Source of the DNA: Melioribacteraceae bacterium
GTDB taxonomy: Bacteria > Bacteroidota > Ignavibacteria > Ignavibacteriales > Melioribacteraceae
DNA length: 6,405 bases
Assembly: GCA_026983755.1 (NCBI GenBank)
Contig: JALSTL010000210.1
Span: 1 to 6,405 of the forward strand
Reading direction: 5' to 3'
Below the pieces are notes generated by a model. The model worked only from the letters and a program-made list of their open reading frames with translations. It was not told the DNA's origin and made no database searches. The position numbers and the translations under genes were made by a program. Within the stretch, counting starts at the first letter, position 1, and each line of letters begins with the position of its first letter. Of the stretch, positions 183-6,405 are shown piece after piece.

Positions 183-740
183 CTACAAAATATTTGTTTT
201 TGGGGAAAAAGTATTTAGTAATACTTTTGCATATTGGAGATAGTAATTATTCTTAGTATTGTTTTGTAAAGTATAGGCAAAATCAAGAATCCAATTTAGA
301 ATATGATTGTTTAGAAAATAGGTAAAAGTCTGTTTTGCATCATTGGTATAATCGGATGTTTCTTTAACGGCACTTAAGAACGCAAGGAATTCAAACTCGG
401 TTGAAATATGATCTGCTAATGAAGGAATAACATCCATCTCCCAATCCGAATAAATTTTCCGAACAATTTCATTTGCTTTACCGAATAAAATTCCTTGAGT
501 AAAAAAAGATTCATAAGGTGGACAAGGGGTTTTTGGAAATCCGGAAATAAATAGACGTGTATATTCCGCCTGCTGTTCGGCTGATTTTTCTTTTTTTGCT
601 AAGTTAATAAGCGGATTAAAATAAATTATATTGTTATTTGCTATTTTTTTTAATTCCAAAAGTCCATTTAAAAATTTTTCATCAGGGTAAGCCATAGCCA
701 GACTTAGAAAACGGTACTCTACTGCAGAAATATCACTCAT
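183..740 (-). CDS. TorD/DmsD family chaperone for the molybdopterin enzyme
   Basis: This is a 185-residue, all-helical cytoplasmic protein of the usual TorD/DmsD length. Chaperones of this family bind the Tat signal peptide and the immature catalytic subunit of a molybdoenzyme, holding back export until the cofactor is loaded. Recognisable family features are EYTRLF (59-64) followed by a proline-rich PCPPYES (72-78), the central L-A-D-H-x-x-x-E-F-E-F-L-A-F-L block (108-122, matching the D-H-x-x-x-E-h-E-F-M pattern), and a C-terminal F-L-x-x-H-x-x-x-W segment (142-150). The ATG at 740 is six bases after the anchor gene's stop, so the two are probably translationally coupled; no strong Shine-Dalgarno sequence precedes it. 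It is the last gene of the operon. Its likely client is the Tat-signal-bearing subunit at 2303-5077, which is inference from context. The exact subfamily (TorD, DmsD, TtrD) cannot be set by eye. Confidence 0.85.
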   Translation of the reverse strand: MSDISAVEYRFLSLAMAYPDEKFLNGLLELKKIANNNIIYFNPLINLAKKEKSAEQQAEYTRLFISGFPKTPCPPYESFFTQGILFGKANEIVRKIYSDWEMDVIPSLADHISTEFEFLAFLSAVKETSDYTNDAKQTFTYFLNNHILNWILDFAYTLQNNTKNNYYLQYAKVLLNTFSPKTNIL

Positions 741-746
741 AAAAAC

Positions 747-1658
747 TTACCATGGAAATTGAAAAACGCCTACTTTCAGAACAAAATACCTTAATAAATA
801 ACCGCCGATTAAAACCAAAGTACTTGCGAAAATAATAATACCGCGGTTGTGCTTTTTACGTTTACTAAATATACTATAAGTTTCTATTCCCAAGGGAATA
901 AATAAACCGGCAATTAAAAAAAGAACCACGAAAACCCAAGAGCCGAACAATAAATTTGCCGAATATTTTGCTCCTGAAGGTAAAAAGAAAGCAAAATTAA
1001 AATATGCACCAAGTATTATTAATTCAATTATAATAAGAACCGCATCCAACCTTTCCAATCTGTTGGCAATATGCTTGGCTTCTTGAGTATTGGCAATAGC
1101 GGAAAGGAGTAGCAAATAAGCAGCTCCGGTAGAAAAAGCAGATACAACAAACAATAATGGCATTGCCGGTGTATTCCAAAATGAAATTCCGGGTGCTGCC
1201 GAAATTAATAAACCGGTATAAATAGCAACAAGAAAACCTGTTGATGCTCCGGCAACAGCTGCCGCACCATTTAATTTTTCTAAAAACAATAAAATCTTTT
1301 TAGGTACTAAATTTATTAGAGGTTTAAATATTTCCCATTCTTCCAATAATGGTATTATATAAAATGTTGCAATTGCAAAAAAACCGTTTATAAAAATAAC
1401 ACCCCAAAATATCCATGAAGAAGGATTTGTTAAAGCATAAAATGCTTTAAATGGCTGTAACATATCTGCCAATAAGAATATTGTTCCAAGCCCAAGAAAT
1501 ATCATAGAAGATAAAACTGCAATTGACAACATTTTTTTATTACAATTTTCAAAAAGATGTAAGATAGTTGCCAAAGCAAAAGTTGCTCCGCCTAATCCTC
1601 CAAGGAATAAATATACGGCTATTTTCCAATGCCAAACATGTTGTATTTCAAAACTCAT
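747..1658 (-). CDS. nrfD: NrfD/PsrC family quinone-reactive membrane anchor
   Basis: This 303-residue integral membrane protein has eight predicted helices at roughly 11-33, 45-66, 81-104, 130-155, 163-188, 204-226, 236-258 and 273-293, the normal count for compact NrfD/PsrC proteins. Family-like stretches are the N-terminal W-x-W-K-I-A-V-Y-L-F-L-G-G-L-G-G (9-24), D-x-x-Q-P-F (65-70), S-W-I-F-W-G (81-86), Y-T-G-L-L-I-S followed by P and F-W (147-161), S-A-F-S-T-G (173-178), and the closing G-G-Y-L-L-R-Y (285-291). NrfD proteins anchor the Fe-S and catalytic subunits and exchange electrons with menaquinone. The gene starts 23 bases after the Fe-S subunit stop, with an AAGGAT Shine-Dalgarno at good distance. 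Its position directly after a four-cluster ferredoxin supports a Psr/Phs/Ttr-type complex. The symbol denotes the protein family rather than a proven role in nitrite reduction. Confidence 0.9.
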   Translation of the reverse strand: MSFEIQHVWHWKIAVYLFLGGLGGATFALATILHLFENCNKKMLSIAVLSSMIFLGLGTIFLLADMLQPFKAFYALTNPSSWIFWGVIFINGFFAIATFYIIPLLEEWEIFKPLINLVPKKILLFLEKLNGAAAVAGASTGFLVAIYTGLLISAAPGISFWNTPAMPLLFVVSAFSTGAAYLLLLSAIANTQEAKHIANRLERLDAVLIIIELIILGAYFNFAFFLPSGAKYSANLLFGSWVFVVLFLIAGLFIPLGIETYSIFSKRKKHNRGIIIFASTLVLIGGYLLRYFVLKVGVFQFPW

Positions 1659-1666
1659 AATTAAAT

Positions 1667-1672
1667 ATCCTT
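1667..1672 (-). promoter_or_regulatory. Ribosome binding site of the NrfD-type gene
   Basis: AAGGAT on the minus strand ends eight bases before the ATG at 1658. It supports that start codon over internal alternatives. Confidence 0.6.
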
Positions 1673-1681
1673 ATGTCTTTA

Positions 1682-2284
1682 TCATTTTGTATTTATATAA
1701 AAAGTTCTTACATGTGTACCTAGTTCAGGTCGTAAAGATTTGGCTTTTTCAGAAGCTACTTTCTTATATACTTCACTCTCTTTATTTTCCAAATCTCCAA
1801 ATATTCTAGCTCCGGTAGGACATGTTTCCACACAAGCAGGTTCAAGACCTTCTTTAAGTCTGTGATCGCAATATGTACATTTATCAACATGCGGAACATT
1901 GTGGTAATTTTTATCAGGATGCAGAGTTTCGTTTTTCTCTATATCTTCACTTTCATAAGCATAACGTGCATCGTATGGGCAAGCAATAACACATGCAAAA
2001 CATCCAATGCATCTATCGTAGTTTACCTTAACAATACCGTCTTGGGTGATGTAAGTTGCTCCTGTGGGGCAAGCCGCCTCGCAAGGAGCGTTTTCGCAAT
2101 GCATACAAAGTCTTGGTAAAAATACCCTGTTCACATCAGGATATTTCCCTTCGGTTTTATCTTCAACGTGTGTTCTAAACTTATCGTCCCAAAAAGGAGT
2201 TTGGTTTTCCGTTGAACATGCAGCCATGCAAGCTTTACAACTTACACAAGCTTTTACATCTATTACCATTGAATATTTAGCCAT
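1682..2284 (-). CDS. Four-cluster [4Fe-4S] electron-transfer subunit (PsrB/PhsB/DmsB type)
   Basis: This 200-residue ferredoxin-like protein has 16 cysteines in four clusters: C13-C16-C19-C23, C60-C63-C68-C72, C92-C95-C98-C102 and C136-C139-C151-C155. The second, third and fourth motifs end in C-P, and two of these continue as C-P-T-G-A. This is the standard arrangement of the beta subunit of DMSO-reductase-family respiratory enzymes, which passes electrons between the membrane anchor and the molybdopterin subunit. It has no signal peptide of its own. As in relatives, it would be exported by piggybacking on the Tat signal of the large subunit. The start at 2284 has a strong AAGGAGA eight bases upstream and lies 18 bases after the large-subunit stop. 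All cluster ligands are intact, so the subunit looks functional. Confidence 0.93.
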   Translation of the reverse strand: MAKYSMVIDVKACVSCKACMAACSTENQTPFWDDKFRTHVEDKTEGKYPDVNRVFLPRLCMHCENAPCEAACPTGATYITQDGIVKVNYDRCIGCFACVIACPYDARYAYESEDIEKNETLHPDKNYHNVPHVDKCTYCDHRLKEGLEPACVETCPTGARIFGDLENKESEVYKKVASEKAKSLRPELGTHVRTFYINTK

Positions 2285-2292
2285 TCGTAAAA

Positions 2293-2299
2293 TCTCCTT
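2293..2299 (-). promoter_or_regulatory. Strong ribosome binding site of the Fe-S subunit gene
   Basis: AAGGAGA on the minus strand lies eight bases before the ATG at 2284. It is the clearest Shine-Dalgarno in the window and fixes the start of the ferredoxin gene. The large subunit, by contrast, has no visible Shine-Dalgarno. Confidence 0.7.
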
Positions 2300-2302
2300 C
2301 GA

Positions 2303-5077
2303 TTATTCTTTGTTAATTAATACGGTAAATGTTTGAGACATAAATGATGCGGCTAGCGGTTCTATTTTGTATGGTATTAAATCACTTAGCGGACTTCCTT
2401 TGCCGTATGCCGTTTTTAATTTGGGATTTTTACTCCCGAATGAAGAAGGTAAAAATACTGTGTCCGGTCTTATTCCTTCGGTAATATGAACATTCGCTTT
2501 TGTTTGCCTTTTGTAAGCACTGTTTTTAATAATAATTTTATCACCTTCGGATAGTTTTAATCTTTTTGCCCTTTCGGGATGCATCCATAAACCTGTGTAT
2601 TCGTTTTCTTTTGTTTTGGTAATAGCAGAAAGTAATTGATTGTTAGTATTTGTAGATGCATGTGATGCTACGGGTGTTTTTCCGTATGTAAAATAAAATT
2701 CATTTTCGTCTAACACTTTTTTATCATTTTCAATACCAGGTGGAAAATATTCTATTAATGGATTGAAAACCGGTTCTTTGTTTCCCATTTGGTTTAAGTT
2801 AAAAAGAAACGAACTATAAAATTCCAAACGTCCTGAAGTTGTTGGAGCAGGTATTTTCCAAGCAATTGCTTTTTCTTCCAGCATTTTTTCTTGTGTCTTT
2901 AATATTAAAACTCCTTTTTCATTAAGCTCTTTTATTACACTTCCTTTATTAGAAAATTTGGGATTGATTTCTTTTGCTTTTTCTTCCATAGTTTGAATGG
3001 AAACTTTTATGAAAGCTTTATTTATACTATTGCCGTTGTTTTCGGCTTTGAGAACTTCTTTTTTTAGTAATTCATAATTTAATTCCGCATATTCTGCTAC
3101 TGCGGCTAAATATTCATCAAAAAATCCTAAACGTTTTGCTAAATTAAAAAATATATCAACCGTATCGGCAGTATTATATAAAGGTTGTATTGTTTGAAAA
3201 CGTGTTGTAAAAGCCAAGTCGGGTGAAGGTCCTAACGGATACAATAAAGGTTCGTTCCTTTCAAGATAAGTATGATTCGGTAAAATTACATCGGCATAAG
3301 CTGTTGAATCTGCCGGTAATACATCAATAGCAACTACAAGGTTTACATTATCGGATGAAAATATTTTTTGCCATCTATCCGAAGGAAAATAATGTCTAAC
3401 AGGATTGGCAGCATTTAATATGAAAGCTTTAACATAATATGGGGCACCGTTATATTCCAAATTTCCGTTAACAGCTTCTAATAATCCGCTATCTGCCATA
3501 CTTGGTATGGCAGCACCTGGTTTTCCTTTTTTCTTTTGTTGTTCTGCCCATGCAAATGTAAAAGCAGGGTGTTTATGTTGCCACGCATTCGGATTTCCCG
3601 TTTGATTTATTAAGGCTTCGGCAAATTTAATGCCCGGTATTACGGCAACATTTTTTGGTTGTGGTTTGTTGTTTTTTTCATTGTACCAATAGTTTGCAGC
3701 ATTATATTTGTATTCGCCTCCCATTAGCCAACCGCCGGGTTTTTCAATACCGCCAATTAATGTTTGAATCATTGCTTGAACACGTCGTAAAGTAATTACA
3801 TTATCGTAACGTGCACCCATCCAGCCGGGATCAATAATTGCGGGTCTGGTTCTTCCGAAATCAATAGCTATTTCTTCAATTGTTTTAGCATCTATTCCTG
3901 TAATATCTTCCGCCCATTTACTACTGTATTGCTCAATTTGTTCCGTTAAAAATTCAAAAACGGTTTTTACTTTATGATTCTTCCATATCAATTTTTCGGG
4001 TACGGTGAGTGCCGGTATAATTAATTTGTTGTTAACTGACTTTTTGTTTGTATTTATAAAACCGGGCACGGCAACAATCTTTTTTGTAATGTTATCGAAT
4101 ATATAAAACTTTTTGATTTTACCTTTTTTATTTTCGTTTAATAATTTAATATTGCCTTGCTTGTCTTTGTAAGCTAAGAAAGGTGCATTTGTATATAATG
4201 AAACAAATTCTTTGTCGTACAAATTATTCTTTATAATTACATTCATCATTGAAAGAAAAAAAGCAAGATCGGTACCAGGTTTTATTGGCAACCATGTGTC
4301 TGCACGCGAGGCAAGTTCACTCATCCTCGGATCAAGTACAACAATATATGCACCGTTTTTAACAGCTTTGCCAAACCGTACTGCCCTGGCAACGGAAATT
4401 GCAGCTATGGATGCATTGTTTGCACTAAAAAGTAAATAACGTGCATTTTCAAAATCGGGTAATATTTCATCATGTACATTAAAATTACCGGTAACAAGAT
4501 CTGTTCCTAAATGCCCTGCAGTAACACAATGCTGAAGTGGTGAAGCAATAATATTCGGTATTTGATAAGCTGTAATAAACGGTAATGAAAAATGCATATA
4601 AGAAACACATGAAGTCCAACCGCCAACCATAGCAATTTCCCAAGGATTTACTTTCTTAAGTCGTTTGACAATATAATCATAAGCTTCGTCCCAAGTAGCT
4701 TTTCTGAACTTCCATTCACCGCGTTTACTTCCTTCTATTCTAATTAATGGTGTCTTCAATCTATCAGGATCGTATGTTTGTAACCAGCCTGATTGACCAC
4801 GTGCACAAATTTTACCTCTATTTAAAGGACTATTAGGATTGCCGTCTATTTTTGTTATTCGTTCCGTGTGTTTACTTGTTCTAACATTTATTTGAATATC
4901 GCAGAATGATGAACAAAAATTGCAAATGCTATAAAATTTAGTGTTCTTAAAAACTTCAGGTGTTGTTGAGGAAAAAAGATTGTTGGCGATAAAAGATGGT
5001 AATGGATTAAGTATTGATAAACCGCCTATAACACCGGTTGCTTTAATAAAATCTCTTCTGGAAATTTTTCTTTTCAT
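2303..5077 (-). CDS. Tat-exported molybdopterin oxidoreductase, catalytic subunit (polysulfide/thiosulfate/tetrathionate reductase type)
   Basis: This 924-residue DMSO-reductase-family enzyme opens with a twin-arginine signal, S-R-R-D-F-I-K at 6-12, followed by a hydrophobic stretch (about 13-32), so it should act in the periplasm. A [4Fe-4S] site follows, C52-x2-C55-x3-C59 and C91. The molybdopterin core includes Q-H-C-V-T-A-G-H, where C184 is the most likely molybdenum ligand; LDPR (248-251) and W-L-P-I-K-P-G-T-D (262-270) in the first dinucleotide-binding half; N-A-A-N-P (555-559); and Y-A-D-V-I-L-P-N-H-T-Y-L-E-R (594-607). The C-terminal MGD-binding domain runs from about 793 with H-A-S-T-N-T-N-N (806-813) and ends near 922. 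A segment at about 297-375 and a lysine/glutamate-rich one at about 670-740 make it longer than typical PsrA/PhsA (about 760) and nearer TtrA or SreA. It leads an operon with Fe-S subunit, anchor and chaperone. A cysteine ligand and the C-terminal motif favour sulfur-compound reduction; arsenate, selenate or sulfite chemistry cannot be excluded. Confidence 0.88.
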   Translation of the reverse strand: MKRKISRRDFIKATGVIGGLSILNPLPSFIANNLFSSTTPEVFKNTKFYSICNFCSSFCDIQINVRTSKHTERITKIDGNPNSPLNRGKICARGQSGWLQTYDPDRLKTPLIRIEGSKRGEWKFRKATWDEAYDYIVKRLKKVNPWEIAMVGGWTSCVSYMHFSLPFITAYQIPNIIASPLQHCVTAGHLGTDLVTGNFNVHDEILPDFENARYLLFSANNASIAAISVARAVRFGKAVKNGAYIVVLDPRMSELASRADTWLPIKPGTDLAFFLSMMNVIIKNNLYDKEFVSLYTNAPFLAYKDKQGNIKLLNENKKGKIKKFYIFDNITKKIVAVPGFINTNKKSVNNKLIIPALTVPEKLIWKNHKVKTVFEFLTEQIEQYSSKWAEDITGIDAKTIEEIAIDFGRTRPAIIDPGWMGARYDNVITLRRVQAMIQTLIGGIEKPGGWLMGGEYKYNAANYWYNEKNNKPQPKNVAVIPGIKFAEALINQTGNPNAWQHKHPAFTFAWAEQQKKKGKPGAAIPSMADSGLLEAVNGNLEYNGAPYYVKAFILNAANPVRHYFPSDRWQKIFSSDNVNLVVAIDVLPADSTAYADVILPNHTYLERNEPLLYPLGPSPDLAFTTRFQTIQPLYNTADTVDIFFNLAKRLGFFDEYLAAVAEYAELNYELLKKEVLKAENNGNSINKAFIKVSIQTMEEKAKEINPKFSNKGSVIKELNEKGVLILKTQEKMLEEKAIAWKIPAPTTSGRLEFYSSFLFNLNQMGNKEPVFNPLIEYFPPGIENDKKVLDENEFYFTYGKTPVASHASTNTNNQLLSAITKTKENEYTGLWMHPERAKRLKLSEGDKIIIKNSAYKRQTKANVHITEGIRPDTVFLPSSFGSKNPKLKTAYGKGSPLSDLIPYKIEPLAASFMSQTFTVLINKE

Positions 5078-5163
5078 ATTATTGCTTTGTATTTTTATAA
5101 ATGAAGTTTATATTTAAAATGTTTTATGCTTAAGAAAAAATATTTTTAAAAATAAATTTAGAG

Positions 5164-5180
5164 ATTCGGTATTCGGAATA
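5164..5180. promoter_or_regulatory. Candidate operator: TATTC-G-GAATA palindrome, copy 1
   Basis: A perfect 11-base palindrome TATTCGGAATA occupies 5170-5180 and is preceded by an extra ATTCGG (5164-5169), giving three half-sites in a row. It lies about 93 bases upstream of the large-subunit ATG. The identical 11-mer recurs at 5409-5419. No known regulator site is recognised; a role as operator is inference. Confidence 0.35.
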
Positions 5181-5253
5181 TTTTGAGAAATTATATATTA
5201 GCCCGCTTAAATGAAAGATTGTAAACGTTAAAATAAATTTTGTTTTTGTCTTC

Positions 5254-5261
5254 TATTCCGA
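5254..5261 (-). promoter_or_regulatory. Partial inverted copy of the TATTCGGAATA element
   Basis: TATTCCGA here is the exact reverse complement of the TCGGAATA half of the two full elements, and it lies between them. At eight bases it could be chance in AT-rich DNA. It is listed only because it shares the C-G core of the element. Confidence 0.2.
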
Positions 5262-5332
5262 CAATTGGAAACGTAGATTAACAAAAAATAACCTTTTTAT
5301 AAGGGACACATATATATAATTATGGTAATTTC

Positions 5333-5363
5333 GATATGATATCCTTAATTTAATAAAATTAAG
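5333..5363. repeat. Two abutting perfect dyads
   Basis: GATAT-G-ATATC (5333-5343) is followed with no gap by arms CTTAATTT (5344-5351) and AAATTAAG (5356-5363) around AATA. The second could form an eight-pair hairpin in RNA or serve as a protein site on DNA. Neither is followed by a T-tract on either strand, so an intrinsic terminator is unlikely. They sit near the middle of the divergent region. Confidence 0.4.
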
Positions 5364-5408
5364 AGAAGAACTCAAGTTTTCATTTGTTACAAAATTTTAA
5401 ATGTGTGA

Positions 5409-5426
5409 TATTCGGAATAATTATTC
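5409..5426. promoter_or_regulatory. Candidate operator: TATTC-G-GAATA palindrome, copy 2, with overlapping dyad
   Basis: The second exact copy of TATTCGGAATA (5409-5419) overlaps another perfect palindrome, GAATAATTATTC (5415-5426). Together they give three TATTC/GAATA half-sites in 18 bases. This lies about 163 bases before the NosZ-like ATG and upstream of the candidate promoter at 5479-5510, a position that would suit an activator. This is inference from repetition and symmetry only. Confidence 0.35.
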
Positions 5427-5478
5427 TTGTTAGCAATTATATAATTTTCTATATTTATAATACAGTTTGAAATGTTAA

Positions 5479-5510
5479 TTTGTTTTTATAACTTTAAAAA
5501 GATATCTGTG
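5479..5510 (+). promoter_or_regulatory. Possible Bacteroidota-type promoter of the NosZ-like gene
   Basis: TTTG (5479-5482), a 20-base spacer and TATCTGTG (5503-5510) resemble the Bacteroidota -33/-7 consensus TTTG / TAnnTTTG, with one mismatch in the -7 box. Transcription would start near 5516, leaving a leader of about 73 bases. A weaker alternative is TTTG at 5531 with TCAATTTA at 5552. Such short AT-rich motifs arise easily by chance. Confidence 0.3.
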
Positions 5511-5580
5511 TCTTACTTCTTAAATGAATGTTTGTAAAAATAGTATATAAATCAATTTATTTTTTTAACAAAACAGAACG

Positions 5581-5587
5581 AGGGAGG
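5581..5587 (+). promoter_or_regulatory. Purine-rich RBS-like sequence placed unusually close to the NosZ-like start
   Basis: AGGGAGG ends one base before the ATG at 5589, much closer than the normal five to nine bases. The next in-frame ATG (5613, Met9) is 25 bases away, too far for it. No in-frame start codon lies between the motif and 5571. The motif may be an imperfect Shine-Dalgarno, or start selection may not depend on one, as is common in Bacteroidota. Confidence 0.35.
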
Positions 5588-5588
5588 C

Positions 5589-6405
5589 ATGATACAAAAA
5601 GCTAAACGTACCATGTACCGCATAGCATTATTGTTAATGTTTGCTATGTTAGGTCAAATGTTTGCTCAACAAACTCTTGACGATGTAAAAAAAGCTCGTA
5701 ACTTAAACGACGATGATGTTTTGGCTGCCGTTAAAACATTTATGCCTCGTGGCGGGCGCGACGAGTATTTTGCATTTGCAGGAACGGGTAATTCCGGAAC
5801 AATGATTGTTTACGGTTTGCCTTCAATGCGTATTTACAAATACGTCGGTGTTTTCTCACCTGAACCATGGCAAGGTTATGGTTATGATGACGAAAGCTCT
5901 CTAATGCTTAAAAAAAGTTCTCTTGACGACCGTATTTATAATTACGGCGATATGAGATATCCTGCGTTATCGGAAACAAACGGGGAATATAACGGAAAAT
6001 ATTTATTCTATTCCGATGGTGCTAATTCAAGAATTGCGTTGCTTGGTTTGGATGATTTTGAAACCAAACAAGTTTTAACAAACCCGTTATTTGCTAACTG
6101 CTATCCAGGTGTTGCTGTTACTGAAAATACGGAATATGTTATTCAAACAAGTCAATATCCTTCTCCATGGGATAACAAAGTTGCCAGTACAGATAATTTT
6201 GATTCTCAATTTAAATCAGGAGTAACTTTCTGGAAATTTGAAGATCCTAAAGGTGCTACTAAATCCGGTCATCATATAGGTCGTATGCTTAAAGAAAAAT
6301 CTTTTACTTTGGAACTACCTCCGTTTTCATTAGATTATTTTGATACAGGTAGAAAAGGAAGTAAAAATTTTGTTGTTGGTTTAGCTTCCAAAGATGGGAA
6401 AAATT
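5589..6405 (+). CDS. nosZ: NosZ-like protein, Sec-exported (clade II-type nitrous oxide reductase homologue) lacking visible CuZ histidines; 3' truncated by window
   Basis: The first 272 codons are present; full NosZ is usually about 600-700 residues. A Sec signal peptide (basic start, hydrophobic 12-26, likely cleavage after A26 in QMFA-QQ) replaces the Tat signal of clade I enzymes. The rest follows the clade II NosZ beta-propeller: K-A-R-x-L-x-D-D-D-V (34-43), R-D-E-Y-x-x-F (57-63), V-Y-G-L-P-S-M-R (74-81), G-Y-G-Y-D (96-100), Y-P-A-L-S-E-T-N-G (124-132), F-E-T-K-Q (156-160), N-P-L-F (165-168) and T-E-N-T-E-Y-V-I (178-185). Known NosZ reduces N2O to N2 in the periplasm using the CuZ and CuA centres. 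Here the expected HH pair of CuZ is R123-Y124, the third histidine position is Y172 in C-Y-P-G, and the N-D-K-A-N motif reads S-D-G-A-N (143-147). The CuA domain and four other CuZ ligands lie beyond the edge. Membership of the NosZ family is secure; N2O reductase activity is doubtful. Met9 (5613) is an alternative start that also leaves a signal peptide. Confidence 0.87.
   Translation, partial: MIQKAKRTMYRIALLLMFAMLGQMFAQQTLDDVKKARNLNDDDVLAAVKTFMPRGGRDEYFAFAGTGNSGTMIVYGLPSMRIYKYVGVFSPEPWQGYGYDDESSLMLKKSSLDDRIYNYGDMRYPALSETNGEYNGKYLFYSDGANSRIALLGLDDFETKQVLTNPLFANCYPGVAVTENTEYVIQTSQYPSPWDNKVASTDNFDSQFKSGVTFWKFEDPKGATKSGHHIGRMLKEKSFTLELPPFSLDYFDTGRKGSKNFVVGLASKDGKN

Follow-up and report, generated by a model that had tools for sequence, protein, structure and literature searches.

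The window, by which we mean the whole 6,405-nucleotide stretch of contig JALSTL010000210.1, runs out inside a plus-strand ORF (5589..6404) for a NosZ homologue without ligands for the CuZ cluster; of its roughly 745 residues, the window encodes the first 272. We call this protein A; its start codon is provisional. Divergent to it, on the minus strand, lies a four-gene operon (183-5077) for a molybdopterin oxidoreductase, a 4Fe-4S protein, an NrfD-type membrane protein and a TorD-like chaperone. The best NCBIfam match of the oxidoreductase is PhsA at 352 bits, below the cut-off of 694, and the operon probably specifies a respiratory complex like the polysulfide/thiosulfate reductases. A scan of positions 5000-5700 for promoters and terminators gave nothing better than shuffled sequences, and the window contains 14 matches to an FNR-type box where 16.8 are expected.

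The N-terminus of A (5589..5666, plus strand) reads like a signal peptide, and protein A would be exported by Sec. In the model of its closest relative, from a Melioribacteraceae MAG (L001), residues 2-24 form a helix. This relative, the nearest of 80 kept from 122, shares 97% amino-acid identity with the window protein and 90.5% DNA identity with the window over 1003 alignment columns; its A gene has 745 codons and overlaps the next gene by one base. The NCBIfam model for Sec-type NosZ (TIGR04246) matches the window piece of A at E 1.4e-62 over model positions 1-203 (211.8 bits, cut-off 625). Clade I NosZ structures match it at E 4e-19, and a Pfam search with the cut piece returned no match.

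An earlier note on this DNA had claimed that the CuZ histidines are replaced at both sites visible in the window, and this is confirmed. The motifs read exactly D121-M-R-Y-P-A-L-S-E-T-N-G and, at the end of 5949-6110, N-P-L-F-A-N-C-Y-P-G. The codons for R123 and Y124 (5955..5960, plus strand; 5955-5957 and 5958-5960, respectively) and for Y172 (6102..6104, plus strand) align to the CuZ ligand columns H123, H124 and H172 of a canonical Azospirillum NosZ (L080). In an alignment of L080 with the Marinobacter nauticus enzyme, these columns correspond to H132, H133 and H181, which are named as CuZ ligands in the accessible text of PMC11573801; the columns were cross-checked against the residue numbers in that text and the PDB titles of histidine-to-alanine variants. 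Because the window ends inside A, the CuA domain and the partner gene of the window organism are deduced from relatives, and we expect the window gene to behave as theirs do.

The family of A and its partner gene

Scanning GTDB genomes turned up 122 encoded relatives; the 80 that were kept all come from draft genomes. By best match, 78 are of the A type and two (L079 and L080) are canonical clade II NosZ. The A relatives are labelled Melioribacteraceae, Bacteroidales, Saprospiraceae, Flavobacteriales, Lutibacter, 'Chlorobiota' and, once, 'Cloacimonetes', and some are named 'nitrous-oxide reductase' or 'cytochrome C' in the source databases. Uncut members are mostly about 720-770 amino acids long. 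One (L058, 2383-4854) has 823 residues, about 70 above the usual length, and another (L029, 7980-8951) ends after 323 residues, 92 bases before the end of its contig.

A TIGR04246 profile search of the genomes of L001-L040 revealed a second NosZ homologue, B, directly downstream of A. This gene and the operon that follows it were missed in the earlier note because they lie beyond the window end. B follows A on the same strand in all 68 testable loci (those with an uncut A and at least 300 bases downstream), with a gap of -50 to 100 bases (median 28); in the ten other loci of the 78, A is cut or lies less than 300 bases from the contig end.

B was also sought without A. A sample of 344 Bacteroidales genomes gave 22 matches, 13 of them canonical-like (900-951 bits) and nine with B. 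Eight of these nine genomes also have A; the ninth is G483, whose B match starts 697 bases into the contig. A sample of 395 genomes from the phylum gave 129 matches, including one A-B pair (G003), one protein in two pieces (G405) and one fragment (G272); the remaining 126 score 806-980 bits, and the ligands of 43 of these canonical-like proteins were checked. The nosZ in two pieces (G405:C144:4139-5957) gives two overlapping TIGR04246 matches in two frames, a frameshift that is either real or due to assembly.

The earlier note had also proposed looking for a second canonical nosZ. One with a canonical score is present besides A in four of the 76 distinct A genomes (G027, G034, G036 and G039), but only A, B or their pieces were found in the other 72, which are drafts and may be incomplete. 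In four of the 76 (G019, G020, G772 and G804) only a cut A was found. Matches to A and B occur on more than one contig of G030 (C219 and C28) and of G787 (C154, C176 and C47), so that some genomes carry two A-B pairs.

Complementary loss of the copper sites

Ligands were counted in the best 120 of 3615 A matches and the best 120 of 7921 B matches. Since only the best 120 of each were taken, these are the closest proteins, and all counts out of 120 refer to them. Full-length A retains none of the seven CuZ histidines in 81 proteins, one in 38 and two in a single case, while its CuA set H-C-C-H-M is intact in 119 of 120 (the exception reads HCWHM). B has all seven CuZ histidines in 120/120, none of the five CuA ligands in 115 and one of five in the other five. 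It also carries a C-terminal CxxCH motif in every case (120/120), which A lacks. A cysteine near the N-terminus of B (position 28 of P0242) is likewise invariant (120/120, including the L003 protein) and is lipoprotein-like; there is none at this point in A.

The loci themselves give the same picture. CuA ligands are present in all 69 rows, among the 78 A loci, that reach that region. The CuZ histidines are found in every B row with a letter at the position (63 to 66 of 68 rows, with one X at the third position), and in all 68 B loci the CuA ligands H, C, C, H and M are missing from their positions. All twelve ligands are present in each of 78 canonical controls (43/43 from Bacteroidota, 12/12 gammaproteobacterial clade II and 23/23 clade I), a set that leaves out canonical matches shorter than 560 amino acids (L185 and L186). 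The accessible part of PMC10936187 describes clade II CuZ sites as more variable, but no such variation was seen at the seven ligands in these controls.

The seven CuZ positions of A are mostly occupied by Arg, Tyr or Phe, Tyr or Phe, a variable residue, Asp, a variable residue and Tyr. The first is not histidine in 77 of 78 loci (74 R, 3 W), the second is Y or F in 78 of 78 and the third in 77 of 78; Asp at the fifth and Tyr at the seventh are invariant (120/120). Our guess is that R at the first and D at the fifth form a salt bridge in the old CuZ cavity. The earlier note had interpreted A as a conserved, diverged paralogue with either a rebuilt metal site, no CuZ, or a role outside N2O reduction such as electron transfer. 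The absence of CuZ is borne out by the histidine counts, and an electron-transfer role would fit because the CuA set is intact. The residues at the CuZ positions speak against a rebuilt metal site: among the His and Cys residues of the propeller, just H229, H436 and H464 (P0122 numbering) are shared by 90% or more of the 120 A proteins, and none of them lies at a CuZ position. Our sequence analyses gave no evidence of a role for A outside N2O reduction.

Measured against canonical NosZ, A retains 0-2 of the seven CuZ histidines and falls short of the TIGR04246 cut-off of 625 bits (469.8 for L003 A). B keeps the seven histidines and has lost the CuA set; L003 B passes the cut-off (664.6 bits) and some other full-length B proteins lie just below it (for example, 617.7-623.7).

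Known NosZ is a head-to-tail homodimer in which the CuA of one chain works with the CuZ of the other. We propose, with a probability of roughly three in four, that A forms a heterodimeric (split-site) nitrous oxide reductase with B, the product of the next gene. A would contribute the CuA electron-entry site kept in its cupredoxin domain, having lost the CuZ cluster from its propeller; B would contribute the seven CuZ histidines of its propeller, having lost CuA and carrying a C-terminal cytochrome c motif. The two would pair head to tail like NosZ homodimers, so that each dimer would have a single functional site, CuA(A)-CuZ(B), and a second interface that is dead. The electron donor to the CuA of A would be a periplasmic cytochrome c, the haem of B, or both; from there the electrons would move to the CuZ of B, where N2O would be reduced. 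Since A lacks CuZ ligands and B lacks CuA ligands, A alone should have no CuZ and B alone no CuA. The missing halves would face each other on the dead side, so that a head-to-tail A-B dimer would restore exactly one complete site. The core argument for the heterodimer is that one site has lost both of its halves and the other has kept both; complementary loss, strict pairing, purifying selection, linked history and a nos-type operon are established at the level of sequence.

Conservation is distributed in the same complementary manner. The column entropy of the CuA windows is 0.024 in A versus 0.835 in B, and that of the CuZ windows is 0.890 in A versus 0.245 in B. The rest of the propeller of A (0.976) is at least as variable as its CuZ windows, and the rest of the cupredoxin domain of B (1.014) at least as variable as its CuA windows, which indicates that these domains drift as wholes. 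In A, the CuA windows are the most conserved part tested (0.307 for the rest of the cupredoxin domain). This is as expected if CuA works, and argues against A being an assembly or stability partner, that is, a pseudo-enzyme that holds B dimeric or delivers copper and whose CuA takes no part in turnover. Such partners are known in other enzyme families and separate maturation genes are present in the A-B operon; we regard this alternative as quite improbable.

Selection, history and operon

Both proteins are under purifying selection. The dN/dS between the window gene and that of L001 is 0.041 over 271 codons, nearly all of them in the propeller. Across nine comparisons (this one and eight further pairs) A gives 0.03-0.08, and B gives 0.02-0.12 across the same eight pairs. 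Decay or sequencing error in A is rejected on these low ratios together with the recurrence of the second and third replacements in 78 and 77 of 78 loci, respectively; as the earlier note had argued, A is a conserved, diverged paralogue. AlphaFold2 models (pLDDT 85.4 and pTM 0.76 for A, 80.3 and 0.75 for B) both have the NosZ fold of a propeller and a cupredoxin domain. Each matches solved NosZ chains over about 600-640 columns, with TM scores by target length of 0.81-0.87 (50 matches listed for each). As the matches extend across both domains, A has kept its propeller despite losing the cluster, and B its cupredoxin domain despite losing the copper ligands.

These observations bear on the main rival to the heterodimer, in which CuZ receives its electrons directly from the haem of B and A works separately. 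B homodimers would then be self-sufficient N2O reductases, with the C-terminal cytochrome c in place of CuA as the donor to CuZ, and A homodimers would form a periplasmic CuA electron shuttle. The cytochrome c of B could, in principle, feed CuZ without A, as the CxxCH motif in 120/120 B proteins would allow, and the intact CuA of A would suit a shuttle. However, a mere shuttle would have no need of a propeller under purifying selection (dN/dS 0.041), B retains a copperless cupredoxin domain, and A stands beside B in 68 of 68 testable loci. We consider this rival unlikely, though less so than the other alternatives.

In a tree of 63 rows, A and B each form one clade with a support of 100, so that the homologues with the RY and CYPG motifs do form a clade of their own, which the earlier note had suggested examining. 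The rows comprise every third full-length pair (20 pairs), 14 clade II proteins from Proteobacteria, three of seven from clade I, and, from Bacteroidota, four of the 12 that passed a regular expression (which kept 31 canonical loci overall) plus L081 and L084; Campylobacterota cNosZ are not among them. A and B group with proteobacterial clade II (100), apart from canonical Bacteroidota NosZ, in a tree where long branches meet (B with canonical Bacteroidota). With the A and B rows halved for the test, a common A and B clade has a p-AU of 0.325; a single common origin is thus not rejected, nor is it shown.

The distances among A proteins correlate with those among B proteins (r 0.867 over 45 pairs, with 0/999 shuffles as high). 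This used the 45 of 60 pairs that have NosD, for which the corresponding values are 0.758 (A-NosD) and 0.744 (B-NosD); the partial A-B correlation given NosD is 0.694. As the distances of A, B and NosD share one genome history, the correlation supports linkage and not contact.

A and B stand at the head of what is, by its gene content, a nos-type operon. In G003 (locus L212) the pair is followed by genes for a small cytochrome c, a membrane-type protein that matches no family, NosD, a NapG-like protein, a NapH-type protein, an ABC ATPase, a NosL-like protein and an ABC permease. Scores exceed the cut-offs for NosD (366.5 bits, cut-off 300), the NapH type (245.9, 213), ABC_tran (83.7, 25) and ABC2_membrane_2 (64.4, 27.2), and fall below them for NosL (22.5, 24) and NapG (142.2, 269). 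The set of NosD, ABC ATPase and permease, NosL and NapG/NapH-type proteins found beside A-B is that of clade II-type nos operons, and from gene position and comparison with known clade II operons, we take the genes to be NosB, G, H, F, L and Y. The NosD cluster is present in 49 of 81 sources (the window and 80 loci, many of them short). At individual loci we also noted a gene like those of TonB copper receptors after NosD (L012; 120 bits, below 472) and a pentapeptide-repeat protein (Pfam PF00805, 122 bits) after the ABC permease (L212:7283-8251). Past the operon of L210 (11453-15812) lie genes for a 990-residue molybdopterin/4Fe-4S protein and a 456-residue NrfD-type protein. These presumably resemble parts of alternative complex III, and are a possible electron route to the A-B pair.

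The molybdopterin-enzyme operon of the polysulfide/thiosulfate reductase kind that diverges from A in the window could point to a substrate other than N2O, for example a sulfur compound. A Mo-enzyme that clusters with that of the window was found in only one other locus, however (cluster c40, two members). The A-B operon itself contains nos-type maturation genes, and in B the surroundings of CuZ are the part most like canonical NosZ (consensus identity to L080 of 0.727 versus 0.588 for the rest of the propeller). Another substrate is therefore very improbable, the least likely of the alternatives we considered.

Relation to known nitrous oxide reductases

The enzyme known to remove the greenhouse gas N2O is NosZ, whose chains have both copper sites. 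The A-B pair resembles the homodimeric, Sec-dependent clade II NosZ (TIGR04246) in fold, in its two domains and in operon type, B keeping the CuZ histidines and A the CuA site, and the gammaproteobacterial members of this group are its nearest neighbours in the tree. It differs in that each canonical chain has both sites (78/78 controls, including clade I) whereas A and B divide them between two genes. With cytochrome c-containing clade II NosZ (cNosZ), as in Wolinella, B shares its C-terminal CxxCH (120/120), but cNosZ also has CuA and B has none. A clade III lactonase-type L-NosZ (NF052460) was rejected as an identification of either protein: with 89 bits for A and 101.5 for B against a cut-off of 700, the homology is only distant.

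The nearest report that we found is that of CuA-only NosZ-like proteins in DPANN archaea (PMC10936187). According to the accessible text, these have CuA and lack CuZ, are 56-617 amino acids long and branch between Cox2 and clade II NosZ. In two MAGs, a short protein with five conserved histidines that groups with clade II NosZ is encoded directly upstream of the NosZ-like gene, a His-bearing neighbour reminiscent of B. The DPANN proteins are shorter, however, and most are without a CuZ partner, whereas here A and B are full-length, B has all seven histidines and a nos-type operon follows. A complementation test is discussed there as negative; with the general lack of partners, this indicates that CuA-only homologues need not act in N2O reduction. 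More than one nosZ has been recorded in 195 of 5,799 genomes (PMC10390337), and A-B-like pairs are not described in the accessible part of that paper. We found no split or heterodimeric NosZ in the literature searched, a body that takes in few subscription papers and no bioRxiv preprints.

We think it probable, if a little less so than the heterodimer itself, that A and B represent a new architectural class: an obligate heterodimer that arose by complementary copper-site loss in two NosZ paralogues, with a tethered haem and a single, asymmetric CuA(A)-CuZ(B) site, and that many uncultured Bacteroidota and Ignavibacteriota have no other enzyme for N2O reduction. With the sites divided between two natural partners, each copper site could be altered alone, which would be a direct test of whether electrons cross the dimer interface in turnover and whether a dimer can do with one active site. 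In gene surveys, A can pass for a working nosZ, although alone it should not bind CuZ, and N2O reduction by these uncultured bacteria would be detected only where the A-B pair is recognised.
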